Of a DNA stretch of 64,000 nucleotides, positions 11,512-55,217 are shown in pieces. Position 1 is the stretch's first letter; each line of letters opens with the position of its first letter. Origin of the DNA: Candidatus Anammoxibacter sp. (GTDB taxonomy: Bacteria > Planctomycetota > Brocadiia > Brocadiales > Anammoxibacteraceae); NCBI GenBank assembly GCA_021777055.1, contig JAIQZO010000034.1, forward strand, positions 89,721 to 153,720, given 5' to 3'. The notes below the pieces were generated by a model, which did no database searches, was not told where the DNA came from, and worked only from the letters and a program-made list of their open reading frames with translations. Position numbers and translations under genes: made by a program.

Positions 11512-14500
11512 CTACTCTTGTGTAACAGAAACACTCTTATCTTCCGTGTTAAATACTGCCTCGCCATTTGTTGCAAGAAATCCGAATCTGACCTTGAATC
11601 GTGCTGTTCCGTCTGCACGTGTATTTGCCGATGAAGGTCTTACGGTTACTGTACGCCCGTTCGTAGTTGTCTCAACTCTAACACCGGACCTGGGATTTCC
11701 ATCCTGATCAAGGGCTGTGACTATAACCTCTTGTGGTATAAGAGTGCTTCTAAAGGATTCAGGGTTAGCAGTCAATGCCGATTTATCTACCGGGGTTGGT
11801 GTAGGTGTTATTACTACCGTTGTTGTTGGTATCGGAGTAGGTGTTGGTTCTGCCGTTGTTGTCGGTGCCGGAGTGGCTGTTGGCGCTACCGTTGTTATTG
11901 GCGTCGGAGTAGGTGTTGTTGGTCCTGTAGTTGTTGTCGGCGTTGGAGTCCCGGAAGGAGTAGATGTTGGAGTTGCCGTCGGGGTTGGTACCACAACAGT
12001 CAACCCGAAGTCTCCCGTTAATGCCGGTGATGTAGCGGTTGAAACAAGTGACGTTTCATCTGCATTCATAAGGTTGCCGCTCTCTTTTAATGTAAGTGTT
12101 AGTCCTCCAATGGCAGGAGGTGTTGCACCCTTTGAATCTACTATAATGATGACAAGAGTTGATGCATCAGTCCATGTGCCTATGTAATCAACCCCTAGAA
12201 CCTGAGAGAATTGGAAAATGTTGTCAATCTCAACCTTTGTTGAGACTGGTGGTTGGTTTGTTGCACCTGCAAACAACACAGTTATGGTATCTCCGTCTGA
12301 ATAGATCCCATCTCCATCATCAGGGTCGTCAGCTGTTACAGATAATATGGAGGGGGCCTCCAGTGCCCCGAAATCTCCAACCAGTGCAGATGATGTTGCT
12401 GTTGAAGAGAATGATGTCCCTGCTGCATTCTTAAGGTTACCGCTCTCTTTGACTGTTAATGTAAACACATCAACGGCAGGAGGTGTTGCACCTGTTGAAT
12501 CGACTATGGTTATAACCATAGTTGAGGCATCACTCCAAACACCAGTGTAATCCATCCCCAGGGAGTCTGAGAATGTAAATAGGGCATTTATTTCCACATT
12601 TGTCGAAACTGGAGGTTGGTTTGTTGCTTCTGAAAAGACTACGGTTATTGTATCGCCATCGGTATATATTATATCACCATCATCAGGATCATCTGCTGTT
12701 ATTGTGTCAATGGATGGACCAGGATTAACAGAGAATAGCTGGCCGTATATCTCCACGTCTAATGGTGCAATGTCTCCACCGTGCCATACCACAAAATACT
12801 CATTGCTTGCAGAGTTGAAGGTAACTGCAGCACTCTGGGCATCGAAACTAAGATCTCCATCTGGCCCCATATCACTGAGGCGCATGTCATTAGTATCTAT
12901 CTCTGTCTCTTTACCATCAATAACTTTGATGCGCTGGCCAAAAATCTCATCTTCGCTAAACCCTATTGTTCCTGAAATATAACTTCCCCACACCACAAAA
13001 TACTCGTTGTTTAAGGGGTTGAATGTTACACTAGGACTGAATGCCAAGATACTGGTATCTCCATCAGTTCCCATATCACTGATCCGGAAGTCATTTGCGC
13101 CTATCTCAGTTGCATCGGCAGCGTTGATGCGCTGGCCGAATATCTCATTTTCATCATCCACCAATGGAGCCGTATCGTCATCACCACGCCACACCACAAG
13201 ATACTCGTTGTTTATAGAGTTATATGTCACAGAAGGAGAGAAAGCCTGGAAATTGGTGTTTCCATCGGGTCCCATATCGCTGATACGGAAGTCATTTGCG
13301 CCTATCTCAGTGCCATCGGCAGCGTTGATGCGTTGACCGAATATCTCAGATTCATCATCCACTAATGGAGCTGTATCGTCATCACCTTCCCAGACAACAA
13401 GATACTCGTTGTTTGTAGAGTTGAATGTTACTTTAGGGTTAAAGGTGTTGAAACGAAAATCATCATCAGGCCCCATATCGCTGATACGAAAGTCATTTGT
13501 TCCTATCTCTGCGCCGGTAGCAGCGTTAATGCGTTGACCATAAATCTCATTTTCACTACCCAATGTGTCTGTTATTTCTGTACCGTTCCATACCACAAGA
13601 TATTCGTTATTTGTTGAGTTATATGTTACATCTGGAACTAAACCAAAGAAATTGTTATCTTGAGCAACCCCCATATCGCTAATACGGAAGTCATTTGTTC
13701 CTATCTCAGTACCATCGGCCGCATTGATACGCTGGCCGAATATCTCAATTTCATCACCCACTAATGGATCTGTATCATCATCACCATGCCACACCACAAG
13801 GTACTCGTTGTTTGTAGAATTGTATGCCACTGCCGGGCTGCCTGCGTCGAAATCGCTATTACCATCAGGGCCCATGTCGCTGATACGAATGTCATTTGTA
13901 CCTAGCTCTAATCCGGTAGTAGCGTCGATTCGTTGGCCGTATATTTCCGTTTCATCATCCACCAATGGGAGAGTGTCGTCATCAGCTTCCCAGACAACAA
14001 AATACTCGTTGTTTATAGGGTTGTATGTTACTGAAGGGGATAAAGCGCGGAAATTGGTATCCCCATTAAAAGCTCCCATATCGCTAATACGAAAGTCATT
14101 TGTTCCTATTTCCGGATCGATAATAACAGGATATACTGCTTTTGCAAGTGCTGCCCCATCAACAACAATACGTGTGCCGGAAGAGGTGACATTCATTGTT
14201 GCGGGAAGTTCATTGTAATCTGCGTCAAATACACGGACATCTCCCAAACTTACCATGCCATTTTTATCATTCCATAACCAGCCATTGTCAACGGTCTCCA
14301 ATGCCCCGGAACTCTTAACGGTTCCCTCTATTACAAGATCACGACCCTTTAATGGCAATTGTTCTGTTATAACAAATTGCTGTTCGACCGTATCTGCTTT
14401 TGCCAGATATTGTTCTACTATTCCTCCACGTTTGTAACTTACCACTCCAGGTTCAATGCTTTGTGGCATTACAGTTTTTTTATTAATATATGATAAAGAA

Positions 14501-14835
14501 GTTGATTCTGCTCCGATATGCTCAAGTCTCCACTGCCAATCAGGACCGCCACGCAAGGGCTTGAAACTTACTCCGTCCATTGAAAATGTCATTATGTGGC
14601 GGGGATGGCTTAACTTGTAACCATCTTCTGTCTTTTGCAAATTGTTTATAGCCAGCCCGACGGCCTTCTCTGGAGATATAATACTGCCTTGCGTTAACGA
14701 ATGAGGCGTTTCCAGACTATCACCCGTGGCCGAATTAATCGCAGCAATAGTGTGGTTTGTAAATGTTACGACATCAACCAAAATCATCAATGTTGATATG
14801 GCTACAATTAAAAATATGTTATACCTCTTCTCCAT
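11512..14835 (-). CDS. Giant secreted protein (paralog 3): seven repeats, two Ig-like domains, Pro/Thr linker, Big_1-like domain
   Basis: 1107 aa; seven ND[FIM]R[IL]SDMG repeats counted; same N- and C-terminal domains, more diverged from paralogs 1 and 2. Confidence 0.9.
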   Translation of the reverse strand: MEKRYNIFLIVAISTLMILVDVVTFTNHTIAAINSATGDSLETPHSLTQGSIISPEKAVGLAINNLQKTEDGYKLSHPRHIMTFSMDGVSFKPLRGGPDWQWRLEHIGAESTSLSYINKKTVMPQSIEPGVVSYKRGGIVEQYLAKADTVEQQFVITEQLPLKGRDLVIEGTVKSSGALETVDNGWLWNDKNGMVSLGDVRVFDADYNELPATMNVTSSGTRIVVDGAALAKAVYPVIIDPEIGTNDFRISDMGAFNGDTNFRALSPSVTYNPINNEYFVVWEADDDTLPLVDDETEIYGQRIDATTGLELGTNDIRISDMGPDGNSDFDAGSPAVAYNSTNNEYLVVWHGDDDTDPLVGDEIEIFGQRINAADGTEIGTNDFRISDMGVAQDNNFFGLVPDVTYNSTNNEYLVVWNGTEITDTLGSENEIYGQRINAATGAEIGTNDFRISDMGPDDDFRFNTFNPKVTFNSTNNEYLVVWEGDDDTAPLVDDESEIFGQRINAADGTEIGANDFRISDMGPDGNTNFQAFSPSVTYNSINNEYLVVWRGDDDTAPLVDDENEIFGQRINAADATEIGANDFRISDMGTDGDTSILAFSPSVTFNPLNNEYFVVWGSYISGTIGFSEDEIFGQRIKVIDGKETEIDTNDMRLSDMGPDGDLSFDAQSAAVTFNSASNEYFVVWHGGDIAPLDVEIYGQLFSVNPGPSIDTITADDPDDGDIIYTDGDTITVVFSEATNQPPVSTNVEINALFTFSDSLGMDYTGVWSDASTMVITIVDSTGATPPAVDVFTLTVKESGNLKNAAGTSFSSTATSSALVGDFGALEAPSILSVTADDPDDGDGIYSDGDTITVLFAGATNQPPVSTKVEIDNIFQFSQVLGVDYIGTWTDASTLVIIIVDSKGATPPAIGGLTLTLKESGNLMNADETSLVSTATSPALTGDFGLTVVVPTPTATPTSTPSGTPTPTTTTGPTTPTPTPITTVAPTATPAPTTTAEPTPTPIPTTTVVITPTPTPVDKSALTANPESFRSTLIPQEVIVTALDQDGNPRSGVRVETTTNGRTVTVRPSSANTRADGTARFKVRFGFLATNGEAVFNTEDKSVSVTQE

Positions 14836-34963: not shown

Positions 34964-35833
34964 ATGGAGTTAACTGCCCAGGATTTTGCTAATTTAAGTC
35001 AATATGTGTATAAAAAATGTGGAATTGTCGTCAAAAATGAAAAGACATATCTGATACAGCAGCGTCTAGCTCCAATTGTTAAAGCAGAGGGGTGTGACAG
35101 TTTTGGCGAGTTTTATCTCAAGCTTTCAAAAGGCCATAACAATAACCTTCATGATCAGGTTATTGTTGCGATTACAACTAATGAGACGAGCTTTTTTAGA
35201 GATAATCATCCTTTTGAAACTTTTAAGAAGGATGTTCTGCCCCAGGTAGAAAAGGTTATACTGGAACGTAAAAGCCGGGTACCTCAACGAAAGGGGGCAA
35301 AGGTACGCCTCTGGTGTGCTGCCTCTTCTACAGGGCAGGAACCGTATTGTATTGCCATGATTATTTATGAATATCTACAAACAGCGAAGCGTAAAGGTAT
35401 TGCTGTAGATGATTTTGAGATATTGGCAACAGACATTTCTTCAAAGGTCCTTGCCCAGGCGATTGCCGGTGAATTTAACGAGTATGAGGTACTTCGCGGT
35501 TTGCCTGCAGTATATAAGAATAAATATTTTACAAAATGTAGCAATGGGTTATGGGAAATAGACCAAAAGATAAGAGATTTAGTAGAATTTAAGCGGTTAA
35601 ATCTTATGGAACGCTTTACTATGCTTGGTGGATTTGACGTTATTTTCTGCCGAAACGTGTTAATCTATTTTGACGATGATGCGAAACGAAAAATATTGGA
35701 TCAGTTTTTCAGTATGATTTCAGATGATGGTTATCTCTTTTTAGGTGCAACTGAAAGTGTGTATGGATTAACCGACAAGTTTAAGTCAGTCAGGACGAAC
35801 AGTACTATACTTTATAAGAAAAATATTAAATAA
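34964..35833 (+). CDS. cheR: CheR chemotaxis protein methyltransferase
   Basis: TTNETSFFRD, LWCAASSTGQEPYCIAM, DVIFCRNVLIYFD motifs. Confidence 0.95.
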   Translation: MELTAQDFANLSQYVYKKCGIVVKNEKTYLIQQRLAPIVKAEGCDSFGEFYLKLSKGHNNNLHDQVIVAITTNETSFFRDNHPFETFKKDVLPQVEKVILERKSRVPQRKGAKVRLWCAASSTGQEPYCIAMIIYEYLQTAKRKGIAVDDFEILATDISSKVLAQAIAGEFNEYEVLRGLPAVYKNKYFTKCSNGLWEIDQKIRDLVEFKRLNLMERFTMLGGFDVIFCRNVLIYFDDDAKRKILDQFFSMISDDGYLFLGATESVYGLTDKFKSVRTNSTILYKKNIK

Positions 35834-36862: not shown

Positions 36863-39730
36863 ATGAAATTAAGATTAAAACAGAAAGAGAGCATGTATAA
36901 CTCAACCATAAAATCCATATGGTCGAGTTTGTTGACAATTGTCATTTTCTTAAGTTTTGGAGCTTTCCCAATCTATTGTTTTGCCGGTTTACAACCGGAC
37001 AAAGGCCAATCCATCCTTTTTTCCTCTGTTAATGGGTTGGATCGGCACCCGGAATATGATGTCTTTTTAAGGGGCATCGGTGAGAAGTTGATTTCCGGGC
37101 AAGATACGGAACTTGAAATTCTTGTACAATACGGCGGAGCATACGGACGAGGAAAAATGCCGGGAGATGCTGTAAAAAATTTGCAAACAGTTTACGGAAG
37201 GATAGTTGAAGTCTTTATTGTCTCTGATGATTTTGAGCATTTTGTCCATACAAGACCTGAAGACTTTGGCGAAATCACTACAGAGATTAAACGGTCAGGT
37301 GTCTTTAAGATAAGGAATAACTTTCCATCTCCCGGTTGGTACAGGGTAGTGATATGCTTCGCGCACAAAGGGCAGGACATTTATAAGCATTTTAATATCA
37401 GCGTTGCTGGGTCAGGTAACGCTAGTGATGTAAAAAAAGAAGATAAAGTGTTGAAAACTGCAGGTACTGGGCTAAATTCTCAATCCGGCACTTTTGACGG
37501 GTATAAGGTTTCTTTAAATATTGGGCCTGCACCTGTTGCATCGAGAAGGAAATCTAAGCTTGTTTATAACATACAAGATGAAAACGGGAACGATGTTGAC
37601 GACCTTGATGTCTTTATGGGTACAGAGCTTCATTTTATTACATGGCGTAATGATTTTAACTTTTTCGGATACCAAAGGACTAAACCGCCAGAAGGGAAAC
37701 CTGGTACGGTTTTAGTAGTTCCTCCCATAAAGACAGAAATAAAATACGGTACAGGGATTTTACGGGAGATAAAGAAGGACGGCAAGATGCTTATCGAACA
37801 TGGAAAGGTTGAAGGTTTACTGCCGGTGGGAAAGTTTCCGTTTAAGGTTAAAGATAAAGAAGCGAGTATAAAGGTTGAGGTTGGTGATTGGGTCGAGTTC
37901 TGGGTTGATAATAATGAGACGGAAGGTATTGTAATTACACGTATAGAACCACTTGCGACTATGCCGACAAGCGGGCAGAAAGGCGTTTATCAGTGGGCGG
38001 GGAATTTGCCGGTTTATCCCGGACCAAGTGTTCCCATTGAACATGTGTTTCCTGCCGCGGGAAGATACGTTCTCTTTGCCCAATTTGAAAATAAGGGGAA
38101 GATTGTTACTACCAAATTTTTTGTAGATGTTAAAGATGCTGCATCTTTGAAAAGCCCGGTTGTGGTTGCTGGAAGTGAGAGTGACACGGATAAAGGGTTG
38201 GTAAAATTGACTCCGGCTGAGAAAAACGGGCAATTGATATATCGGACATCCAAAAGTCTGTCTGGTGGTAAAATATATATAAAACAGGATGACGGTTCTA
38301 AAATAGATGCTACTGAAACAGGAATAACCTGCGTTGGATGCCATGGTGAAGATGGAAGAGGTGGCCAGGAGGGAGGGGTTCTTACCTCTGATATAAGATA
38401 TGTTTATCTGACCAAACCGTATGGCGTTACACACATTTCCGGTAGAAAACATCCTCCGTATACAGACATGTTGTTAAAGAAAGCTATTACCGATGGAATT
38501 GATCCGGGAAATAACAAACTGGATCCCACCATGGTTCGTTGGGAGATGAGCGATGCCGATCTAAATGATTTGTGTGCTTATATTCACAGGTTAAGCGAGA
38601 TGGGAAAGCCGGGAGTGACAGACGATTATATCAGGATTGGATGCGTACTGGATGTGTCAGGCCCTCTTGCCAGTACAGGAAAAGATGCAATGAAGATGAT
38701 AGAGGGGGCATTTAAGAATATAAACAACAGCGGAAAGATATATGGGCGTTCTTTGAAACTAGTAGTGGGTGATGGGGGAAACGACCCTGTTAAATCACTT
38801 GAAGCGGCAAAAACCCTTGTGGAGAATGAAAACATTTTTTGTATGATGGGGAATCTGGGCGAAGCTGCAACAAATAGTGTGATACCGTTTCTGGAAGAGA
38901 AGGGGATTCCCATAGTTGCTCCGTTGGCTCCCACATATCAGCCCGATACGGTAATGGAGCAGAATGCATTCTTTCTATTCCCCACAGTTGCCTATCAGAC
39001 TAGTGTCATGGTGGATTACATTATTCGGACACGTAAGGATAGAAAATCAAAACCCAAGGTAGCTGTAATTTCATCAAATGACAAATTTGGGAAGTCTGGT
39101 TTGGAGGCAGCGAAAAAGCAGCTTAAACTTTACGGAAACAGATCGGTGGTAAACATTGAATATGATTACCGTAATCTTGATGTTAAAAAGATAGCGGCAT
39201 CACTTGCGGAAAGCGGAGCGGAGAGTGTACTGATCCTTACACCAGATGCAAGGATTTTCGGTGTTGTATCAGAGGCCGACCAATTAGGTCTTTCACTTAA
39301 ATATTTCTGTAACAATATGCTTTTAATCAGAAATATTCTAAATATACCAAAGGCGAGCGATAGGTTCCTTTTGGCCCAGAACTATAGTTTTGCAGGTAGT
39401 GCGAACCCCGTATGTGCGGAATTTCTTGAAATAATCAAGGGGTTACAGCTTAGCGCTAAGAACGTAATGATACAGATGGGCGCATTTACCGGAGTAAAAT
39501 TGTTGGAAGAGGGGCTACGCCTTGCCGGAAGGGATTTAACGAGAAAGTCTTTAATCTCCGGCCTTGAAGAGATTCAGTTTAATAGCGGTATTTTTGGTGT
39601 TATTTCGTATAAACCGGGGAATCACTCTGGAGATACAGGTATATTTCTGGTTCGCCCGGATGAAGCGAGCGGTAACTTTGTCCCTGTGACAAAATGGATG
39701 AGGCCTACTGAGAGCGGGATTATGTTTTAA
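36863..39730 (+). CDS. Multidomain periplasmic fusion: YtkA-like domain(s) with CusF-like module, c-type heme domain, LivK-like ligand-binding domain
   Basis: Signal peptide; GTGILREIKKDGKMLIEHGKVEGLLPVGKFPFKVKD..VEVGDWVEFWVDNNETEGIVITRIEPL (CusF-like); CVGCH heme motif; IRIGCVLDVSGPLASTGKDAMKMIEGAF... (type 1 periplasmic-binding fold). Confidence 0.88.
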   Translation: MKLRLKQKESMYNSTIKSIWSSLLTIVIFLSFGAFPIYCFAGLQPDKGQSILFSSVNGLDRHPEYDVFLRGIGEKLISGQDTELEILVQYGGAYGRGKMPGDAVKNLQTVYGRIVEVFIVSDDFEHFVHTRPEDFGEITTEIKRSGVFKIRNNFPSPGWYRVVICFAHKGQDIYKHFNISVAGSGNASDVKKEDKVLKTAGTGLNSQSGTFDGYKVSLNIGPAPVASRRKSKLVYNIQDENGNDVDDLDVFMGTELHFITWRNDFNFFGYQRTKPPEGKPGTVLVVPPIKTEIKYGTGILREIKKDGKMLIEHGKVEGLLPVGKFPFKVKDKEASIKVEVGDWVEFWVDNNETEGIVITRIEPLATMPTSGQKGVYQWAGNLPVYPGPSVPIEHVFPAAGRYVLFAQFENKGKIVTTKFFVDVKDAASLKSPVVVAGSESDTDKGLVKLTPAEKNGQLIYRTSKSLSGGKIYIKQDDGSKIDATETGITCVGCHGEDGRGGQEGGVLTSDIRYVYLTKPYGVTHISGRKHPPYTDMLLKKAITDGIDPGNNKLDPTMVRWEMSDADLNDLCAYIHRLSEMGKPGVTDDYIRIGCVLDVSGPLASTGKDAMKMIEGAFKNINNSGKIYGRSLKLVVGDGGNDPVKSLEAAKTLVENENIFCMMGNLGEAATNSVIPFLEEKGIPIVAPLAPTYQPDTVMEQNAFFLFPTVAYQTSVMVDYIIRTRKDRKSKPKVAVISSNDKFGKSGLEAAKKQLKLYGNRSVVNIEYDYRNLDVKKIAASLAESGAESVLILTPDARIFGVVSEADQLGLSLKYFCNNMLLIRNILNIPKASDRFLLAQNYSFAGSANPVCAEFLEIIKGLQLSAKNVMIQMGAFTGVKLLEEGLRLAGRDLTRKSLISGLEEIQFNSGIFGVISYKPGNHSGDTGIFLVRPDEASGNFVPVTKWMRPTESGIMF

Positions 39731-39950: not shown

Positions 39951-41654
39951 ATGGACACAAAGAACAGATTTGATATAAAAAGACAAACGAAATCAAACAT
40001 AAAGAGATCTCGCCCGGTATCCTTTTATTTTCTTTTATGTTTCCTGTTATTCTCTATTTCAGAAGTAACGGGTAAATATTGTATATGTGCTGCCGAATCA
40101 CTATTAGCGACTCAAAATACCGGGTTCCCGTCTAGGCAAGTGGAGAATAATGTGGCGGTTGAGTTTTTCTTTAGACCTCTGCCTGCAGATGAAAATGGTT
40201 TTGAGGATGAGTTGGCAAAATTTAAACAAAATTTTACCGCAGAGAAGAAAGACAGTCAAAACCGTGTGCGTGTTAACGAGGATGTTGCCATAATATTTAA
40301 GGTTACGGACGCTACTATGGACTGGCCTATACAGGGCCAGGGATTTGTCCCAGACTCACCCATTAGGTTTGCTTCGGGACCTGGCAATCTGGATTATACC
40401 AAGAGTGGAATCTTAAAAAGGGCCAAGTTATACGGAGGTCACTTCCCAATTAATGAATATGTTTACCTTTATGTCCTAAATAGTATCGAGGGTACTGTCA
40501 GCATAATGGATATATCCAGTCTTAATTCAGGTAAACCCATAGAAAAGATCTATTTATCTGACGGTAAGCCGTGCATTGGCATTGACATTGATATAGAGTG
40601 GCTAGGGCGTTATGCATATGTTACACTGGATAGCGATGAAGTTGCGGTTATTGATTGCACGAGGCTCTGTGTTATTCGCAAAATTCCTGTGGGAAGTAAG
40701 CCGCACCATGTGTTTGTTCAGCCTGATGGTAGGCTTGCTTGGGTGTGCAATGATGGAGATGGTACCGTTACGGTTATTGATACGGAAAACCAGTCTGTTG
40801 TAAAAACTGTTTCTGTTGGTGCTGGCCATCATGAAATTGCATTTACCGATGATAGTCGGTATGCCTGCATTACGAATCAAGGAAGTGATAGCGTAACCCT
40901 TGTGGACGTATTCACGTTAACTGTCCGTGGAGATGTTTCTGTGGGTAAACGGCCTCACGGTTTGGGCTTTTCCAGCCTTAGCCAGTTTATGTATGTGGCA
41001 AATGAAGGTGATGGCACTGTTTCTGTTATAAATCCGTGGTCGATGGAACGAATGAATACTATTAAAGCGGGTAAAGGTGTTAGAAAGGTGCGTTTCGGGC
41101 CGTTTCCAAGGTATGGTTTTGCACCGAACAAAGAGGATAATACCTGTTCTATGATAGACGTTACCAAGGACATTGTTGTTAATAATCTCAAAACGGGTTT
41201 GGGGCCGGAAGATGTGACATTCTCCCCGGATTGGATATTTATCAGGAACACTGCGAGCGCGGACCTAACGGTGGTTAGCCTGAATACAATGGAATTGCAG
41301 CAGGATATACCAATAGGTTATAAAAAAGTGACAGGTGTTGATCTACCAATGGGGCATGTTTATATGGAACCTCTGGGGGACGGACATTCAGTCTTAATAC
41401 CAAGTCCTGAAGAAGGAACAGTTTACAGATATGCACCCGGGGAAGCGATGGCAGGCGGAACTGTGCCTACGGACATTTACAATACACAGTCTAAAGGTGC
41501 TTCTGCAATAGCGGTTTACTACAGGGGGTTAAAGGAGATATCCAGTGGTGTATATCTAAGAGTTGTACGGTTTCAGAAACCTGGACGATATGAATTGGGC
41601 TTTTATATAGACAATCCTGAACTGACAGCCTGCTTTGATATATACGCAAAGTGA
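39951..41654 (+). CDS. Periplasmic YVTN-type beta-propeller protein (paralog 1)
   Basis: Repeated VWVCNDGDGTVTVIDT / VANEGDGTVSVINPW motifs; N-terminal signal/anchor. Confidence 0.9.
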   Translation: MDTKNRFDIKRQTKSNIKRSRPVSFYFLLCFLLFSISEVTGKYCICAAESLLATQNTGFPSRQVENNVAVEFFFRPLPADENGFEDELAKFKQNFTAEKKDSQNRVRVNEDVAIIFKVTDATMDWPIQGQGFVPDSPIRFASGPGNLDYTKSGILKRAKLYGGHFPINEYVYLYVLNSIEGTVSIMDISSLNSGKPIEKIYLSDGKPCIGIDIDIEWLGRYAYVTLDSDEVAVIDCTRLCVIRKIPVGSKPHHVFVQPDGRLAWVCNDGDGTVTVIDTENQSVVKTVSVGAGHHEIAFTDDSRYACITNQGSDSVTLVDVFTLTVRGDVSVGKRPHGLGFSSLSQFMYVANEGDGTVSVINPWSMERMNTIKAGKGVRKVRFGPFPRYGFAPNKEDNTCSMIDVTKDIVVNNLKTGLGPEDVTFSPDWIFIRNTASADLTVVSLNTMELQQDIPIGYKKVTGVDLPMGHVYMEPLGDGHSVLIPSPEEGTVYRYAPGEAMAGGTVPTDIYNTQSKGASAIAVYYRGLKEISSGVYLRVVRFQKPGRYELGFYIDNPELTACFDIYAK

Positions 41655-41871: not shown

Positions 41872-42555
41872 ATGAAAAACACTATATACAGGTTTGGTAC
41901 TGTAATTTGCGTTTCTTTTGCTGTACTTTTTCTTTCAGCCTGTTTTGCCTACGCAGAAACTGAAAGTGCAGTGCCACAGGACAAACAAAAAGCTGAAGAG
42001 AAAGGGGCATGTTGTGATGAAGCGGCAAAGAAAGCGGCACTGAATGTTAAAGTTGAAGAGGTGCAGCAGGAATTACCACAACTTCCAAACATTGTTATGC
42101 TTACTCAGGCCGGAGAAACCGTTCGTATTTCCGAAGTCCTGAAAGACAAGATAACCGTTATAAACTTTATTTATACTTCATGCACCAGTGTGTGTCAGAT
42201 ACTCACTGCCAACTTCCGTCAGCTTGAAAAGGCCCTGGACGGCATAGATACGGATCGAGAAGTGCAGCTTGTGTCTATTTCTATTGACCCTGATACCGAT
42301 ACACCTGAAAGGCTTCGGCAGTATGCCGTAAAACAGAGGATTGATTTGGAAAGATGGACCCTTTTGGTGAGTGGAATTAACTCAATCGAAAAATTTTCCA
42401 GGGCATTAGGGTTTTCAAATATTGATAAATCTACGCACGCACCCGGTGTCGTAATCTGGGATGACATAGACAAAAGGTGGCAGCGGTTTGTTGGAATCAC
42501 TCCTCCCCATGTTTTATCAAAAGAGATTGCAAAACTGCCAGCTATAAGTGGCTGA
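41872..42555 (+). CDS. SCO1/SenC family protein
   Basis: INFIYTSCTSVCQILTANFRQLEKAL (CxxxC), VSISIDPDTDTPERLRQYA, THAPGVVIWD. Confidence 0.93.
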   Translation: MKNTIYRFGTVICVSFAVLFLSACFAYAETESAVPQDKQKAEEKGACCDEAAKKAALNVKVEEVQQELPQLPNIVMLTQAGETVRISEVLKDKITVINFIYTSCTSVCQILTANFRQLEKALDGIDTDREVQLVSISIDPDTDTPERLRQYAVKQRIDLERWTLLVSGINSIEKFSRALGFSNIDKSTHAPGVVIWDDIDKRWQRFVGITPPHVLSKEIAKLPAISG

Positions 42556-42588: not shown

Positions 42589-44184
42589 ATGTTTAAAATA
42601 TTATTAATAATAATGATTCGGCTATTTAAATATATATTTTTCCATATGGAGGGAGTATTTAAGAGTATTATCCCTCTAGTTGCTGTATTGATAGTGGTAA
42701 ATTCGGCTGTGTTGGCCGGTTTTGTTGAAAATGGAGTATCCATTGATTTCAAGGTTGAGCCTCTTAGCGTCAATTCATTGGCAAATAGTTCGGCGGATAG
42801 TATACATATTGGTCAGGAAGTAATGATCAATTTTATAGTAAAAGACGCTTTTACCGGGGCTCCGGTAAAAGGGCTTTTGCCTGATTCATTTCTACAGTAT
42901 AAACCAAGAGCAATTACCCCTGAAGAGATTAAGGCCTCTATGGAGAAATGCCGCTTTAGGGCATTGAAAAGGGGGCGTATGCACAATGGTCACCCGCCTG
43001 AATTGGAAAATACCTATGTGATGTGTTTGAATAGTTCAGACAATACTATTTCAGTAATAGACCCATTGATGAAACCAAAATTTATAAGAAAAAAAATCTC
43101 TCTTCCTGAAAAGTGTGCCGATATGGAAATTGATGAATACGGAAGTGATCTTTACGTTACCAGTGAGGACGGGAAGGTTATTATTATAGACTGCAATCTG
43201 CTTGAAGTTATTAAAAGCATAGACGTTGGTGTAAGTCCTTACCATATTATCTTTCAGCCTGACGGACGGTTTGTGTGGGTTGGCAACGATGGAGATGGGA
43301 CTGTGAGCGTTATAGATGCAGAAAAAAGGTTGCTAGTAAAAAATATCCCGGTGGGTAAGGGGCATCATGAGATAGCATTTAGCGATGATTCGTTTTATGC
43401 GTTCGTTACAAACCGGGACGATGATAGTGTTACGGTAATTGATATAAATAGCCTTGTTGCCGTAAAGACATTAATTACGGGAAAGAACCCCCATGGCTTG
43501 GCATACTCTAGCCTGAGTCAGTATGTTTATGTCGCAAATGAAGGAGACGGTACTATCTCTGTGCTGGATACGGTCAAACAGGAGGTAGTAAATACTCTTT
43601 TGTCTGGAAAAGGTGTACGAACTATTGCATTCAGTGACAACGGACGTCTCTGTTTTGCCATAAATAAAAAAGAAAACAGTGTGTCGATATTTGATATCAG
43701 TAGAGACAGGATAATAAAAACCATAGATACTGGCATCAGGCCAGAGAGTATTGTTGTTTCAGAGAAATATGTGTATATCAGGAATGTCGGCAGTCCTGAT
43801 GTAACGGTTATAAAGTTAAAAGATTTGACAAGTAAAGGCCAGATTCCTGTTGGCGATGTGCCGCCTAATAATACAGATCTGAAGATGGGGCATATCGATA
43901 TGGCCGATTCGTATATGGTAATTGTTCCGAATCCGACAGACGGAATTGTCTATACAATGATTCACGGAGATGATGGGACTGCTTTCAAGTATCATACAGG
44001 AACAGGCGGCACGACCAAAGTTGCTATTTTCTGGACCGGTCTTAAAGAGACGCAGCCTGGGGTATATTCACGTGTTGTTAAATTTAATGAGCCGGGGCGT
44101 CATGAAGTGGGGTTTTATATTGGTAGTCCTGAGTTGACGGCGTGTTTTGATGTTAATGTCGCTGCATCTACCATTGGCAGGTAA
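42589..44184 (+). CDS. Periplasmic YVTN-type beta-propeller protein (paralog 2)
   Basis: VWVGNDGDGTVSVIDAEK, VYVANEGDGTISVLDT; alignable with 39951-41654. Start may be the later ATG at 42646. Confidence 0.9.
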   Translation: MFKILLIIMIRLFKYIFFHMEGVFKSIIPLVAVLIVVNSAVLAGFVENGVSIDFKVEPLSVNSLANSSADSIHIGQEVMINFIVKDAFTGAPVKGLLPDSFLQYKPRAITPEEIKASMEKCRFRALKRGRMHNGHPPELENTYVMCLNSSDNTISVIDPLMKPKFIRKKISLPEKCADMEIDEYGSDLYVTSEDGKVIIIDCNLLEVIKSIDVGVSPYHIIFQPDGRFVWVGNDGDGTVSVIDAEKRLLVKNIPVGKGHHEIAFSDDSFYAFVTNRDDDSVTVIDINSLVAVKTLITGKNPHGLAYSSLSQYVYVANEGDGTISVLDTVKQEVVNTLLSGKGVRTIAFSDNGRLCFAINKKENSVSIFDISRDRIIKTIDTGIRPESIVVSEKYVYIRNVGSPDVTVIKLKDLTSKGQIPVGDVPPNNTDLKMGHIDMADSYMVIVPNPTDGIVYTMIHGDDGTAFKYHTGTGGTTKVAIFWTGLKETQPGVYSRVVKFNEPGRHEVGFYIGSPELTACFDVNVAASTIGR

Positions 44185-44333: not shown

Positions 44334-45770
44334 ATGGGAAACGAAAAAAATAGAGGAAAAAAGAGCAATAATTCCAGAGGGAAAGTAGAAAAGCCAAAAA
44401 AGAATAAAGCTTTTACAGAAGAGGTAGTTAAAGAATCTGCGCAGGATATAGATGCGAATGGAATGGCTGTGAACAATGAAATAAAACTTGCCCATAGAGA
44501 TAAGGAGAATGCTGAAGCTGTGGAAGTTTGCAAGGAGAAAACCTGTAAAGAGGGAGGTGTGGGTGCGGGGTGGACAATAAGTATTGCGCTGTCCGCTGCT
44601 CTGGGGTTGGCAATGTCTATCTACCTTACAATACATCACTATCAAATAATGAGTGGACTGCCGGACTATCAAAGTTTCTGCTCCATAAGTGAGTACATTG
44701 ATTGTGATATGGTAAATACCAGCAGTTACTCCGAATTCCGAGGGTTGCCTGTTGCACTTTTCGGTGCAGGTATTTATGCGTGTGTTGTCTGTTTGATTAT
44801 CCTGAGTATTTTTGCGAGAGGTACCACACTAAAACGGTACATTTCAGCAATAACTATCCTGGGCTTTGCGTCGTTTTGCGGATCCATATATTTTGCAATT
44901 GTTTCTACCTTTATTCTTCACGCAATATGTATCCTCTGTGTCGGAACATATCTGATAAATCTCTTTTTCTTCCTTGGTGGTACAGCGGCCATACGTAAGT
45001 TGGACAAAGGGAGCTTCAACCCTGTAAGATCTGTCACATCAATGTTTATGGCAGGTAGGTCAGGAGAAGGTCTTGCAATGGGAAATGCTTTGGGGATCTT
45101 TGCCATAATTATGGTTGTTATCCAGGGGTTTCTTTCTGTGTTATACCTTGATGCTAAATATCTGGGTTTTTCAGATAGTGATATTGCTAGTTTCAAGGAA
45201 AAATATATGGCTATAAAACCTCAGGAGATAGATTTGTCGGATTCTCCATACTGGGGGACTGACAACCCGGATCTGACAATCGTCGTTTTCGAAGATTTTC
45301 TCTGCCATTTCTGCAAACGTGCCCATGTAACCGCGTTTCCAATATTTAAGGAGTATAAGAACAGGATCAAGATTGTATTTAAACATCTTCCTTATGACAA
45401 GGAGTGTAACAGTGCCCTGCAGAAAACCATACATCCTGGTGCCTGTAAATCCGCAGTTGCGGCTGCATGTGCATCCATTCAGGGAGAGTTTGCCAGATTC
45501 CAGGAGTACTTCTTTTCTCACCAGGATGTGATAAAACCTGACATGGATATTGCTAAAGTTGCATCTGAGATCGGTGGTGTTGACATGGATAAATTCGAGT
45601 TATGTCTTGATCAGGGTAAGGGGGAGTGGGTAATACGAAGGGACTTTAATGAGGCAATGAAGCTAACCGTTAGACGTACGCCGGCATATTTCTTTAATGG
45701 ACGTAAATGGGAAGGTGCATTAAAGCCTATATTTATAAAAAAGATACTGGAATGGGAACTGGGGACTTAG
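44334..45770 (+). CDS. VKOR - DsbA/thioredoxin-like fusion protein
   Basis: VKOR TM bundle with loop cysteines FCSISEYIDCD and CILC; C-terminal thioredoxin-like domain with CHFC and cis-Pro (RTPAYFF). Confidence 0.92.
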   Translation: MGNEKNRGKKSNNSRGKVEKPKKNKAFTEEVVKESAQDIDANGMAVNNEIKLAHRDKENAEAVEVCKEKTCKEGGVGAGWTISIALSAALGLAMSIYLTIHHYQIMSGLPDYQSFCSISEYIDCDMVNTSSYSEFRGLPVALFGAGIYACVVCLIILSIFARGTTLKRYISAITILGFASFCGSIYFAIVSTFILHAICILCVGTYLINLFFFLGGTAAIRKLDKGSFNPVRSVTSMFMAGRSGEGLAMGNALGIFAIIMVVIQGFLSVLYLDAKYLGFSDSDIASFKEKYMAIKPQEIDLSDSPYWGTDNPDLTIVVFEDFLCHFCKRAHVTAFPIFKEYKNRIKIVFKHLPYDKECNSALQKTIHPGACKSAVAAACASIQGEFARFQEYFFSHQDVIKPDMDIAKVASEIGGVDMDKFELCLDQGKGEWVIRRDFNEAMKLTVRRTPAYFFNGRKWEGALKPIFIKKILEWELGT

Positions 45771-49585: not shown

Positions 49586-50185
49586 ATGAAGAACAAAAAG
49601 CAAGAGATACTCGATTATCTAATCTCCCAAGCCAGCAGTGGCAATACACCCTCAATCAGGGAAATATGTGAGGCGGTAAAATTAAGTTCACCAGCTACAG
49701 TACATAAACATCTAAGGGATATGGAAATGGAGGGGATAATTTCTACAACGGGAAAATCCCGAGGTATTAAAGTAAAGAAGGGATTGTGGATCAATATTGT
49801 GGGAACTATCGCAGCTGGCCGTCCCATTGAAGTAGAAGAGAAAGATATGGGGGAGCTGGAGCTTCCCCACAGAGCTTTTGCCGCCAGTGGGGAAATTGTG
49901 GCATTAAAAGTGGAAGGGAACAGTATGGTTGATGCCCACATATGTAATGGCGATTATGCCATTATACGTAAGCAGACTATTGTGGAGAATGGCGAAATAG
50001 CTGCAGTAACTATTGACGATGAAGGTACCCTGAAGCGGTTTGTTTCAGACAAGAACTGGATAAAACTGGAGCCCGAAAATGATCATTTTAAACCTATCTT
50101 TCTTTCACGTGAGGCTATAGACAGAAAAGGAAATCAAATAAACGTTTTTGGTAAACTTGTCGGTATTGTAAGGAAATACAGATGA
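49586..50185 (+). CDS. lexA: LexA repressor
   Basis: HTH TVHKHLRDMEMEG; cleavage site region TIAAGRPIE; catalytic VEGNSMVD and TLKRF. Confidence 0.97.
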   Translation: MKNKKQEILDYLISQASSGNTPSIREICEAVKLSSPATVHKHLRDMEMEGIISTTGKSRGIKVKKGLWINIVGTIAAGRPIEVEEKDMGELELPHRAFAASGEIVALKVEGNSMVDAHICNGDYAIIRKQTIVENGEIAAVTIDDEGTLKRFVSDKNWIKLEPENDHFKPIFLSREAIDRKGNQINVFGKLVGIVRKYR

Positions 50186-50293
50186 TGGAGGGGGGGCGTT
50201 CTTATATTCTCTTTTCCTAACCACTTTCAAACATATATTTCGCATGGGCAGAATAAACCTTTGTATTCAATATAGAAAGGACGGTAATGTAAA

Positions 50294-50512
50294 ATGAAAA
50301 CGCAAATAAATCTGTTTCACAGGTCTCTTCCGGTAGACCAAATAATGATTGGCAACCATCACAAGGATAACGATGCAAGGTTTACGAATAGAAATGAAGA
50401 GGCCCATGTCCCAATCATACACCCGGATTCTAATGATGCTGCAATTGGAATCATTGCTTGTTTCATAATTTCTATCCTCTTTTCGATTGTTTTTATTTTA
50501 TTTGGCAAATAA
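50294..50512 (+). CDS. Small membrane protein in SOS cassette
   Basis: 72-aa ORF, one C-terminal TM; between lexA and the polymerase genes. Confidence 0.55.
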   Translation: MKTQINLFHRSLPVDQIMIGNHHKDNDARFTNRNEEAHVPIIHPDSNDAAIGIIACFIISILFSIVFILFGK

Positions 50513-50533
50513 TTTCTGGTAGCAATTAGGAAG

Positions 50534-50827
50534 TTGTTTTTGCTTGCATCCTTACTATCTCTTGTAAACGACATGGAAGAAAAAAGGCTTGAGGAACCGC
50601 TCCGCAAGATACTGGTGCTTTTTGAAAAAGGCATAATAAGGCCTGTCTCGTTTCAATGGTCTAACCGGAATTATACGGTTATCAGTAATAACATGTGGTG
50701 GGTAGATCGAAAGGTAAGGCCTATTCGGTACGGATTCTCTGTAACCGTTAAAAGCGGGGAGACCTTTCAACTCTGCTACAAAGAAGGAGATCCTTTGTGG
50801 TATGTAGAGACTGTAATTTTGCCATGA
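50534..50827 (+). CDS. DUF6504-like small protein
   Basis: PVSFQWSNRNYTVISNNMWWVD...YGFSVTVKSGETFQLCYKEGDPLWYVE resembles small proteins found next to Y-family/dnaE2 genes (from memory). Confidence 0.6.
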   Translation: MFLLASLLSLVNDMEEKRLEEPLRKILVLFEKGIIRPVSFQWSNRNYTVISNNMWWVDRKVRPIRYGFSVTVKSGETFQLCYKEGDPLWYVETVILP

Positions 50828-50851
50828 AATATTCGGCCTGGAGAAATTGAG

Positions 50852-52066
50852 ATGACAAGTACGATACTACACTTTGACTTGGACGCATTCTTCGCTTCGG
50901 TAGAACAACGTAGAAACCCGTTCCTTCATGGAAAACCTGTTATTGTAGGTGCCGGTGTTATAGCTTCCTGTTCGTATGAAGCCAGAAAGTATGGGCTTCA
51001 CGCTGGGATGTCAATTACAAATGCAAAACGGCTTTGCCCAAAGGCTTTTGTTGTGGAAGGAAACGCTCAAATCTACAGATGTATTACCGATAGAATATTT
51101 GAGATGTGCCACGAAATCTCCCCAAGTATAGAAACCTATCTGGACGAGGCATACTGTTCTTTTACCGGAACAGAGCTCGTTTACAAGCACGACCTGGCGA
51201 AACCTGCTATTGATCTGAAACTCAGGATTAAAAATGAATTCGGGCTTAACGCAACTGTTGGGTTAGGGAAAAACCGGATGATTGCAAAAATGGCAAGTAA
51301 GTCGGCGAAGCCCAATGGGTTTCGTGTAATAGAAAACGGAGAGGAGGATAGTTTCATTTGTAATATGCCCGTAGAGTCGCTGCCTGGAGTTGGCCGTAAG
51401 GTTGCGAACGTTCTGAGAAAATTTAATATTAACTCCATAAAAGAGGTAAGAAAGATATCCCTTGAACACCTTCAGCTGCTATTCGGCAAGAACGGAGCCG
51501 CTATATATGAAAGATGTAGAGGAAACGACAGCCATGTAATTAATGAACGAGAAATCCCAAGGAGCATTTCACGGGAGACAACGTTTCATAATGAAACCAT
51601 AAATCTGGAAGAGATATACGGTATGATTCACTATTTAACCGAACGCGCAATGAATACCCTCAGAGCACTTAAACTGGTAACAAAAACAGTAAAACTCAAG
51701 ATTAAATACGCAGATTTTATTGAAGATTCTATGTCTAAAACTCTTTTGGGGTACACCGATATTGATACAGAAATAATAGAACAGCTGTTTTTGTCTTTAA
51801 AGATAATATACAAACGACGAGTAGGGTTAAGGCTTGTGGGGATAACACTGGCGAATCTCAGAATAGATTGTGGATATCGTCAGCTTCAGCTGTTTGATCT
51901 TAATAATAGAAAGATAAAGAAACAGAAGTTATACAGCTCTATTGACGCCATAAGAAACAGATACGGATTTTCTTCAATTGTTATGGGGCAATCTATTAAT
52001 AATTCCAAACGACTTAAACATGACAGCAACGGCTACATCTTACGCACCCCTTCTCTTACGAAGTAA
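50852..52066 (+). CDS. Y-family DNA polymerase (DinB/Pol IV-like) with clamp-binding motif
   Basis: HFDLDAFFASVEQRRNP, YLDEAY (catalytic DE), SYEARKYGLHAGM, GLGKNRMIAKMAS, C-terminal QLQLF. Confidence 0.93.
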   Translation: MTSTILHFDLDAFFASVEQRRNPFLHGKPVIVGAGVIASCSYEARKYGLHAGMSITNAKRLCPKAFVVEGNAQIYRCITDRIFEMCHEISPSIETYLDEAYCSFTGTELVYKHDLAKPAIDLKLRIKNEFGLNATVGLGKNRMIAKMASKSAKPNGFRVIENGEEDSFICNMPVESLPGVGRKVANVLRKFNINSIKEVRKISLEHLQLLFGKNGAAIYERCRGNDSHVINEREIPRSISRETTFHNETINLEEIYGMIHYLTERAMNTLRALKLVTKTVKLKIKYADFIEDSMSKTLLGYTDIDTEIIEQLFLSLKIIYKRRVGLRLVGITLANLRIDCGYRQLQLFDLNNRKIKKQKLYSSIDAIRNRYGFSSIVMGQSINNSKRLKHDSNGYILRTPSLTK

Positions 52067-55000
52067 TTACTCTCTTCTTGCCGGAACGGCATTCATTGAT
52101 GATATCCTGCAAAAGGCAGTTAAGTTTGGGATCAGATCAATTGCATTAACCGATACAAATAACCTTTACGGTGCTCTATCTTTTTATAAGAAAGCAAGGG
52201 CCTTAGGTATAAAACCAATAATTGGGACGGAGCTCTTATCGCAGCAAAACAATGTTTCCGGAATAAGACAAAGGGTCTTTCTGCTGGCAAGAGATTTGGA
52301 TGGTTATAAAAATATATGTAGAATTATAACACGTTTTAATCTGGTTCCTGAATTTAAATACGCAAAACAGAGAGCCATAGGCAGCGACATTCTAACGTCT
52401 ATTGCTGAATTACACGAAGGAATATATTTCCTTACCGATTCGCTATATATAGCAAAGCAGTTAACCGTCACAGTTGACAGGGAGTTTATAAAGCTCCTGA
52501 TTATAAGGCCTGATCAGAATATTAGTACCCAACGGCAGCACTATATAACGGCAAAGAAAATGGGGATCGGTATTGTTGGTAATTGTGATATATTTTTTAT
52601 GGAAAAACACGATTATCAATTCCATAAACTTCTAACCGTGATTAAAGAAGGCGGTTTGATGTCGGATGCTTCTCATCTAACCCATTACCAACAAGAAGAC
52701 GATAATTTATGGTTTGCGCCATCACCTTTGCCAGGACGTTCCACAGTTGTAAGCACGCCGCGATGGTTACGTGCTACCCCATATAACTATTTTCAATCGC
52801 CGCAGGAGATAGCAAAACGTTTTGAAAATTGTCCTGAACTGTTATATAACTCAATAAGCGTCGCAGACAACTGTAATCTTGAGATCCCAATGGACAGATA
52901 TATCTTTCCAAAATACAATATGAAAGATAGTGCGAAGATATCACCTTATGAACACCTGTACAACCTCTGTTTAAAAGGTGCAACGTGGCGATATGGTGTG
53001 GTTTCTGATGTTGTAATAAACCGCCTCAAGTATGAGTTGGAAATTATTAATAAACTGGGCTTTCCGGAATATTTTCTGGTTGTGGGCGATATAATTCGTT
53101 TCGCAAGAGATCGATCCATACCTGTGGTGGGAAGGGGGTCGGGGGCGGGCTCAATAGTTGCTTATACGTTGGGCATAACAAACGTAGACCCACTCAAGTA
53201 TAACCTCTGTTTTGAAAGGTTTATGCATCCTTTACGTAAAGATTATCCTGATTTGGATATAGATTTATGCTGGAAGAAGAGAGATGAGGTAATTGATTAC
53301 GTTTATCGCAAGTATCAGTATGTTGCAATGATATGTACTCACAATAGGTTTCAGTTACGCTCTGCTTTTAGAGAGGCAGCGAAAGCATACGGAATACCAA
53401 ACAATCAGGTTAATATATACAGTAAATTTATCCCTCGCTTACCAGGGTGTACTCTTTCTGAAATAGCAGGTACTATTCCTGTACTTAAAGAGCTATGGAG
53501 AAATAACAAATCGTTTAACCATATAATTAAAGCTGCAGACAGGCTGAATGGTTTTCCACGCCATCTTGGTATACATTCTGGAGGCATTGTAATTGCAAAC
53601 GATCCCATAGAGAGTTACGTTCCATTAGAGATAGCTTCAAAGGGAATAGTTATCACTCAATACGAAATGCACTCCATCGAAGATATAGGACTTATAAAGA
53701 TTGATCTGCTTGGAAACCGGGCACTTTCAACAATAACTGAAGCGGTTAAGTTGGTAAAGAAGAACCATCAAAAAATTATCGTACCCGAAAAGATTCCAGA
53801 TAGAGAGCCAAAAACAGTGGATCTCTTAAAATCCGGTCAAACGTTAGGTTGTTTCCAGATCGAATCTCCTGGGATGAGAAACCTTTTAAAGATGTTAAGG
53901 GTTTCCTCTATCGATGAGACAATCGCTTCGCTATCGCTAATCAGGCCAGGGCCAGCTACCGGTGGATTAAAGGAGTTATATGTCAAGCGTGCAAGAGGGA
54001 TAGAAAAAACAACGCATATAGACCCGAGATTAGAAGAGGTTTTAAAAGATTCATATGGGATAATGTTATATGAAGAGGACGCTATACGTTCTGCAAGCGC
54101 AATTACAGGCGAATCTCTCGCCAGGGGAGATGAATTTAGAAGGGCCATAGCAAAAACAAAGAGAAGCGAAGACTATGTTAAAGTAGAGTCTGAATTCATA
54201 AAAAATGCAACTCGAAACGGAGTGAAAGAAAAGGCGGCTTACTCTGTCTGCAGGTACATTGCAAATTTTGCAAGCTATACATTTTGTAAGGCACATGCCG
54301 CAGGATATGGATTTATCGCGTACCAGGGCGCATATCTTAAGGCTCATTATCCTGCAGAATTTATCGTAAGCCTGCTAAACAACCATCAGGGGATGTACGA
54401 AAGGAGAGTTCACATTGAAGATGCCCGCAGATTAGGTATAAATATACTGTACCCTTGCATAAACAGATCTGACTATGGGTACAGTGTTGACAATCTCTGT
54501 ATCAGGATTGGCTTCATGCAAGTAAAAGGACTTTCGCTTAAGACAATAAGACAAATAATCAGTCAAAGAGAATTTAGCTCTTTAAATAGCTTCCTGCAAA
54601 AGGTAAATGCTAGCCATAAAGAGACCGAATCCTTAATCCTCTGCGGTTCATTTGACTTTACAGGTAAAACAAGGCCTCTGCTTATGTGGGAACTTAAAAC
54701 TCAACTACACAAAACCGCAATCCTAAACACTTGCACTGTTAATAACTTCGAATCTAGGAGAACATCCAGGCAAACCTTTTTTGGTGACGGCCAGTTTAAT
54801 GATTTTATTAGTACTGAGGAACCTGTGCTGGAAGATTACAGTGAGGAGAAAAAATACTGGGACGAGTATAAGGTTCTGGAGATATTTGTTGACCAACACC
54901 CAATGAAACTATTTAAGAAAAGTCTACCTTTGGATAACATAATAGACAGCTCTAAACTTAAATATTTTGCAGGAAAAGAGATAAAGATCGCTGGTATCCT

Positions 55001-55217
55001 GGATGCAATAAGAAAGACAGACACAAAAAAAAACGAAAGGATGATGTTCGTTACAATGGAAGATGAAAAAGGAATGTTTGAGGTCACTCTGTTTCCTTCC
55101 GTATACAGAAAATATAGTTATCTCCTTAAAAGTTATGGGCCTTACATTGTAGAAGGAAAGGTTGAAGATCAATATGGTGCAATTACGGTTACGGCGAAAA
55201 AGATATACTCGACGTGA
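52020..55217 (+). CDS. DnaE2-type DNA polymerase III alpha subunit
   Basis: PHP-like N-terminus; PDLDIDLCWKKRDEVIDYV and IKIDLLGNRALSTI catalytic motifs; GRGSGAGSIVAYTLGI; C-terminal OB fold. ATG at 52020 preferred over the upstream start at 51978. Confidence 0.92.
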   Translation: MTATATSYAPLLLRSNYSLLAGTAFIDDILQKAVKFGIRSIALTDTNNLYGALSFYKKARALGIKPIIGTELLSQQNNVSGIRQRVFLLARDLDGYKNICRIITRFNLVPEFKYAKQRAIGSDILTSIAELHEGIYFLTDSLYIAKQLTVTVDREFIKLLIIRPDQNISTQRQHYITAKKMGIGIVGNCDIFFMEKHDYQFHKLLTVIKEGGLMSDASHLTHYQQEDDNLWFAPSPLPGRSTVVSTPRWLRATPYNYFQSPQEIAKRFENCPELLYNSISVADNCNLEIPMDRYIFPKYNMKDSAKISPYEHLYNLCLKGATWRYGVVSDVVINRLKYELEIINKLGFPEYFLVVGDIIRFARDRSIPVVGRGSGAGSIVAYTLGITNVDPLKYNLCFERFMHPLRKDYPDLDIDLCWKKRDEVIDYVYRKYQYVAMICTHNRFQLRSAFREAAKAYGIPNNQVNIYSKFIPRLPGCTLSEIAGTIPVLKELWRNNKSFNHIIKAADRLNGFPRHLGIHSGGIVIANDPIESYVPLEIASKGIVITQYEMHSIEDIGLIKIDLLGNRALSTITEAVKLVKKNHQKIIVPEKIPDREPKTVDLLKSGQTLGCFQIESPGMRNLLKMLRVSSIDETIASLSLIRPGPATGGLKELYVKRARGIEKTTHIDPRLEEVLKDSYGIMLYEEDAIRSASAITGESLARGDEFRRAIAKTKRSEDYVKVESEFIKNATRNGVKEKAAYSVCRYIANFASYTFCKAHAAGYGFIAYQGAYLKAHYPAEFIVSLLNNHQGMYERRVHIEDARRLGINILYPCINRSDYGYSVDNLCIRIGFMQVKGLSLKTIRQIISQREFSSLNSFLQKVNASHKETESLILCGSFDFTGKTRPLLMWELKTQLHKTAILNTCTVNNFESRRTSRQTFFGDGQFNDFISTEEPVLEDYSEEKKYWDEYKVLEIFVDQHPMKLFKKSLPLDNIIDSSKLKYFAGKEIKIAGILDAIRKTDTKKNERMMFVTMEDEKGMFEVTLFPSVYRKYSYLLKSYGPYIVEGKVEDQYGAITVTAKKIYST

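Follow-up and report, generated by a model that had tools for sequence, protein, structure and literature searches.

A YtkA/CusF-bearing cytochrome c-periplasmic-binding protein of the Anammoxibacter family as a candidate accessory of MnxG-like multicopper oxidases

A fusion protein encoded in the genome of Candidatus Anammoxibacter sp., within a 64,000-nucleotide stretch of contig JAIQZO010000034.1 (hereafter the window), is best read, with a probability of roughly 55%, as the form taken in the Anammoxibacter family (f1) by the cytochrome c-periplasmic-binding protein (cyt-PBP) accessory of the MnxG system, which would act in the periplasm or at the outer surface as docking and electron-transfer partner of four giant MnxG-like multicopper oxidases (MCOs). 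Genomic data from several phyla lend good support to the link between cyt-PBP proteins and giant oxidases, and the N-terminal YtkA/CusF module of this protein is specific to the Anammoxibacter family among the genomes searched.

Architecture of the fusion protein

The open reading frame gives a stop-free translation of 955 aa, the features of which are as follows (all on the plus strand, in window coordinates).

36863..39730, +: fusion protein: signal segment, tandem YtkA-like beta-sandwiches (the second interrupted by a CusF-like domain), cytochrome c and type 1 periplasmic-binding domain (open reading frame, Pfam, full-length homologue)
36863..36988, +: N-terminal hydrophobic segment, putative signal peptide, residues 1-42 (sequence reading; model helix 2-32)
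37049..37408, +: YtkA-like beta-sandwich 1, residues ~63-182 (profile match to YtkA-like tandem proteins; model strands of moderate confidence)
37478..37681, +: YtkA-like beta-sandwich 2, first half, residues ~206-273 (profile comparison)
37748..37951, +: CusF-like OB domain, residues 296-363, within beta-sandwich 2 (PF11604 above cut-off; alignment to E. coli CusF)
37970..38134, +: putative second half of YtkA-like beta-sandwich 2, residues ~370-424 (low-confidence model strands after CusF; motif comparison)
38204..38602, +: class I-type cytochrome c domain, residues 448-580 (PF00034; invariant columns; motif check)
38330-38344, +: heme motif CVGCH, residues 490-494, inside the cytochrome c domain (motif check)
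38531-38533, +: invariant Met557 (conservation in homologues)
38624..39697, +: LivK-like periplasmic-binding domain of type 1, residues 588-945, with the LivJ ligand residues replaced (PF13458; Foldseek)

The original prediction of a four-part fusion proved to be real. The Pfam models CusF_Ec (residues 296-363, 27.7 bits versus a curated cut-off of 27.0), Cytochrom_C (residues 489-577, 28.1 bits versus 21.3) and Peripla_BP_6 (residues 590-933, 162 bits, E 3e-47) all matched above their cut-offs, which bears out the CusF-like module and the periplasmic-binding domain as first proposed, and the fold of the latter was clear from Foldseek matches to 4n03, 3hut, 1usg and others. No match to the fusion protein was found in PHROGs. 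The hydrophobic segment at the N-terminus is probably a signal peptide. A scan of genome contigs with a single sequence found nothing; homologues were recovered by an alignment-based scan, including a full-length one with 60% identity and identical domain order in Candidatus Anammoxibacter OFTM214, a second genus of the family. The same architecture therefore exists in another genome, the fusion is no assembly artefact, and a chance fusion through misassembly was ruled out.

Neither of the two YtkA/FixH-like segments had a direct Pfam match. The N-terminal half was matched by hhalign (probability 95%, E 4e-8) to tandem beta-sandwich proteins encoded in two further planctomycete genomes, which themselves match the YtkA model PF13115 with E 7e-4, below its cut-off, and whose genes adjoin RND-type (CzcA/CusA-like) efflux genes identified by sequence. 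This match spans sandwich 1 and the first half of sandwich 2 and ends just N-terminal of CusF, and later strands appear to complete sandwich 2 (its second half being assigned by motif likeness, FPAAGRYVLFAQF here versus FKEPGIYKAWGQF in L074), so that the proposed insertion of the CusF-like domain in the second YtkA-like domain has good support from sequence. AlphaFold provided no structural confirmation, because the N-terminal models were of low confidence: the whole-chain model (mean pLDDT 59) was usable for the periplasmic-binding domain and most of the cytochrome only, and the N-terminal model (pLDDT 42) was discarded, together with its Foldseek matches, as uninformative.

Since the CusF segment alone returned only noise against PDB sequences, the Pfam profile and direct alignment were used for this domain. 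It has an OB-type sequence profile (PF11604) in common with E. coli CusF, whereas the Cu(I)/Ag(I) ligands Trp44, Met47 and Met49 are absent in both genomes and only His36 is kept, so that copper binding by the CusF-like domain cannot be assumed. The OFTM214 homologue scored somewhat higher against the Pfam model (32.9 bits), and whole-genome searches found no other CusF_Ec domain in either the source genome or OFTM214. The full N-terminal module was not found in any other genome among 394 of the phylum, and no other fusion from the GTDB scan bears it.

The single-heme cytochrome domain was confirmed. CVGCH and the distal Met557 are invariant in an alignment of 11 homologues, and this conservation suggests that Met557 is the axial heme ligand. 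The periplasmic-binding domain has the type 1 fold in common with LivJ/LivK, but it is fused to a cytochrome, lacks permease genes beside it and has lost the ligand residues: all the positions equivalent to S79, A100, T102, D121, Y150, Y202 and E226 of LivJ are replaced, and the same holds almost everywhere in the cyt-PBP homologues aligned, which makes a LivK-type amino-acid sensor unlikely. The heme site thus looks like the only canonical one of the chain, and the CusF and periplasmic-binding domains look repurposed.

These losses bear directly on the idea of the original prediction that the protein is a redox-linked ligand sensor, whose binding domain would take up a small molecule and report the heme redox state to a partner. 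The periplasmic-binding fold is sound and common to AmiC-type sensory proteins, and no ABC permease lies next to the gene, as was first noted: the closest ABC genes lie at 57.1-59.4 kb, and no permease or ATPase genes of a Leu/Ile/Val importer adjoin the fusion in the 64-kb window. However, apart from the lost amino-acid ligand residues, no permease, kinase, chemoreceptor or regulator was conserved in the clusters examined, and the CheR gene upstream (34964-35833) has no conserved counterpart next to the Anammoxibacter copy. Sensing is consequently very unlikely; of the original functional proposal, the part concerning metal or redox handling fits the gene neighbourhood and the sensory part is weakened.

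The gene cluster and the cytochrome c-PBP family

Downstream of the fusion gene, four genes follow on the same strand, with successive gaps of 220, 217, 33 and 149 bases.

39951..41654, +: YVTN/YncE-type beta-propeller of 567 aa, part of the conserved accessory set (Pfam; 62% identical orthologue in L035)
41872..42555, +: SCO1/SenC-like copper chaperone, with CTSVC (residue 104) and His189 present (PF02630; motif check)
42589..44184, +: second YVTN beta-propeller, 531 aa (Pfam; orthologue in L035)
44334..45770, +: VKOR plus DsbA-like thioredoxin fusion, 478 aa, putatively disulfide-forming (PF07884, PF13462; CxxC motifs; 65% identical orthologue)

A YVTN propeller, SCO1 and VKOR-DsbA (in place of SurA) thus stand beside the fusion as in mnxG-type clusters, the VKOR-DsbA protein being the counterpart of the SurA/DsbA gene of other mnx clusters. 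A giant MCO gene is absent from this cluster and from the window, which therefore holds the accessory set without the oxidase. The gene order is kept in OFTM214, with one extra ORF inserted, and there the cluster is preceded by genes for a 2183-aa MCO, located two genes upstream of the fusion gene, and an NHL propeller. Counts of promoters and terminators in the window equalled the shuffled expectation, and no transcript is therefore claimed. Both propellers also match models of clade III lactonase-type NosZ and hydrazine synthase beta (E 1e-16 to 1e-27), with scores far below cut-off that indicate a shared propeller family. Elsewhere in the window (49586-55217), genes for a LexA-like repressor, a DinB/ImuB-like polymerase and a DnaE2-like polymerase are consecutive and, as read from sequence, look like a standard SOS mutagenesis cassette.

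The mnxG operon of P. putida GB-1 contains mnxG, a YVTN propeller, two SCO1/SenC genes, an 'ABC substrate-binding protein, cytochrome c domain' and SurA (PMC11409713 Table 4). The fourth of these (gene 641547574) is, by annotation, likewise a single chain of cytochrome c and periplasmic-binding protein near a YVTN propeller, SCO1/SenC and a SurA-type protein (PMC11409713). Compared with it, the fusion adds ~440 N-terminal residues (two YtkA-like domains and the CusF-like insert), and the window cluster differs from the P. putida operon in having VKOR-DsbA instead of SurA, two propellers and no adjoining MCO gene. Cytochrome c maturation genes are required for Mn oxidation in P. putida, according to work cited in PMC11409713 and PMC11930936, which is consistent with a needed c-type cytochrome. 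The literature searched yielded neither a published function of the cyt-PBP gene in mnxG operons nor an experiment on any cyt-PBP protein.

Related proteins were detected in Acidobacteriota, Chromatiales, Methylococcales, Udaeobacter, Geobacter and Jettenia (L036-L045, L051, L017). Their cores are 26-31% identical to that of the fusion and they have the same neighbours, but they are only 514-586 aa long, lack the N-terminal module and usually adjoin an MCO, often with two SCO domains. Of 12 cyt-PBP loci, drawn from Acidobacteriota, Pseudomonadota, Verrucomicrobiota, Thermodesulfobacteriota and the anammox group, all had a YVTN propeller and SCO1 within the fetched flank and 11 had a giant MCO there, the exception being the Geobacter locus. 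Similarly, planctomycetes of f22 have trios of propeller, cyt-PBP and SurA/DsbA genes (L076-L079) with no giant MCO or SCO1 detected in stretches of 12-18 kb; these trios and the Geobacter locus imply that a cyt-PBP protein can exist without an MCO. One f22 locus (L079) has two copies of the trio, arranged as a near-perfect inverted repeat. No cyt-PBP was found on plasmids. In addition, small lone cytochromes c with 31-41% identity to the heme domain of the fusion occur in archaea (Hydrothermarchaeota, Pyrohabitans and AR15; L046-L050, L052), in some cases within a few kb of a DsbA-like gene.

The association also holds within the anammox order, where the same five of 63 genomes contain both a cyt-PBP protein and a giant MCO (of either type) and the other 58 contain neither; the chance of such a coincidence, taken at face value, is 1 in 7 million (1/C(63,5)), although only two lineages are involved. 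Three further genomes of the order were rejected as carriers of giant MCOs, their matches covering only ~100 residues and being taken as ordinary small oxidases. In a phylogeny of the cyt-PBP core, the source and Anammoxibacter proteins form a long separate branch and the Jettenia copy groups with other bacteria; one common anammox copy inherited by Jettenia and Anammoxibacter was weakly rejected (AU p 0.03, with long branches). Two of the three copies in the Jettenia genus are split by frameshifts at different places (L018 9283-10934 and L019 9262-10913), due to either errors or decay, and the third is intact.

Giant MnxG-like oxidases of the host

The host is an anammox bacterium, as its hydrazine synthase beta scores above the curated cut-off. 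Four full-length giant MCO genes (2012-2165 aa) are present elsewhere in its genome (G000), on contigs C48, C93, C66 and C14 (L054-L057), one of which also carries hydrazine synthase genes. Three of the four proteins are mutually 84-93% identical, indicating recent amplification. None of the genes adjoins the window cluster, and two have a neighbouring NHL propeller. All four proteins keep the copper motifs HxxHxH, HCHxxxHxxxxM, HIHMxHFD/HTHMxHFD and WHPHxGG, which line up with those of the solved Mn oxidase MnxG (PDB 9bxa). Host MCOs and MnxG are both multi-domain oxidases with these four motifs in the same order, but the latter is much shorter (1227 aa). The match to 9bxa has an E-value of 1e-53 for the host, 6e-57 for Anammoxibacter and 3e-112 for Jettenia, and the host proteins are ~25% identical to the Jettenia form. 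Three of the host proteins also differ from MnxG in having a C-terminal Ig-like domain. On the basis of these motifs the host MCOs appear to be MnxG-like, and Mn(II) oxidation is a candidate activity.

The Ig-like domain is of Big_1 type. Three long paralogous secreted repeat proteins in the window (4087-7005, 7663-10929 and 11512-14835, all on the minus strand) end in this domain, and the same ~85-aa unit closes three of the host giant MCOs. It occurs in more than 15 places in the host genome and in about 30 in Anammoxibacter, often at the C-terminus, where it is possibly a sorting or surface-anchoring domain.

The complete set of copper ligands in the giant MCOs raises the possibility that the fusion is a copper-loading scaffold, whose YtkA-like/CusF-like module would pass copper together with SCO1 to the oxidase and whose heme would do no more than adjust the copper site's redox state while the oxidase is assembled. 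The neighbouring SCO1 retains CxxxC and the His, and the YtkA-like tandem proteins of other planctomycetes adjoin efflux genes, both of which suit such a role. However, Trp44, Met47 and Met49 of the CusF domain are lost in both genomes, and all other cyt-PBP proteins lack the module, yet their clusters have an MCO and SCO1. A scaffold of this kind is thus conceivable but unlikely.

Anammox bacteria are mostly anaerobes, and the Anammoxibacter family is known from Mn-rich tunnel biofilms and deep sediments. A full-length subunit I of cytochrome bd oxidase (E 7e-162) is encoded by the host, which therefore probably meets oxygen; its sister genome, OFTM214, comes from oxygen-exposed tunnel biofilms that hold Mn oxides (PMC10732223). 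Both facts would agree with a function in oxygen defence, in which the MCO would receive electrons from the periplasmic cytochrome pool by way of the heme domain and reduce O2 to water, protecting the anammox machinery. On the other hand, the solved member of the matched MCO family oxidises Mn(II), and the literature search found no documented route of electron input from a cytochrome to such MCOs, which leaves this reading rather improbable.

Proposed role and implications

If the fusion is an accessory and redox partner of the giant oxidases, as we favour, the families and the gene neighbourhood suggest a division of labour in which SCO1 would deliver or reduce copper, VKOR-DsbA would make disulfides and the propellers would scaffold oxidase assembly. 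The one-heme domain may exchange electrons with the periplasmic cytochrome pool on one side and, on the other, with the oxidase or with a substrate of it, for instance Mn(II) or Fe(II). The periplasmic-binding domain would dock a protein or bind some other ligand, given that the lost residues argue against branched-chain amino acids being bound as in LivJ, and the YtkA-like/CusF-like module could be a family-specific addition for docking or copper handling without the classical Cu(I) site of CusF. Mn(II)/Fe(II) oxidation and O2 removal are both possible activities. Points against this reading are the separation of the window cluster from all four host MCO genes, the f22 and Geobacter loci with no MCO in the stretches examined, and the confinement of the co-occurrence in the order to two lineages; the mainly anaerobic life of anammox bacteria weighs on Mn(II) as the substrate.

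The cyt-PBP core itself is already known, by annotation, from mnxG operons. New, as far as the literature search reached (the Anammoxibacter description, Suarez 2022, PMC9325076, lying outside it), are a form that carries the YtkA/CusF module, the confinement of this form, within the set of genomes searched, to a single anammox family, and its co-occurrence with four giant MnxG-like oxidases in the genome of an anammox bacterium. 'Manganese oxidase' genes have been reported in tunnel planctomycetes, with no assignment to Anammoxibacter in the available portion of that source (PMC10732223).

The cyt-PBP protein is a concrete target, combining the pairing with giant MCOs in the anammox order (5/5 versus 0/58), a lost amino-acid site and a lineage-specific added module. 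It is tempting, if still speculative and with the odds against it, to suppose that an anammox lineage runs a periplasmic metal-oxidation module, in which four giant MnxG-like oxidases are wired to the cytochrome pool by a YtkA/CusF/cytochrome c/PBP chimera, so that Mn(II)/Fe(II) oxidation or O2 removal would be coupled to anammox metabolism. The finding points to a potential for manganese or iron oxidation, or for oxygen handling, which was not mentioned in the parts of the literature covered, in the Anammoxibacter family.
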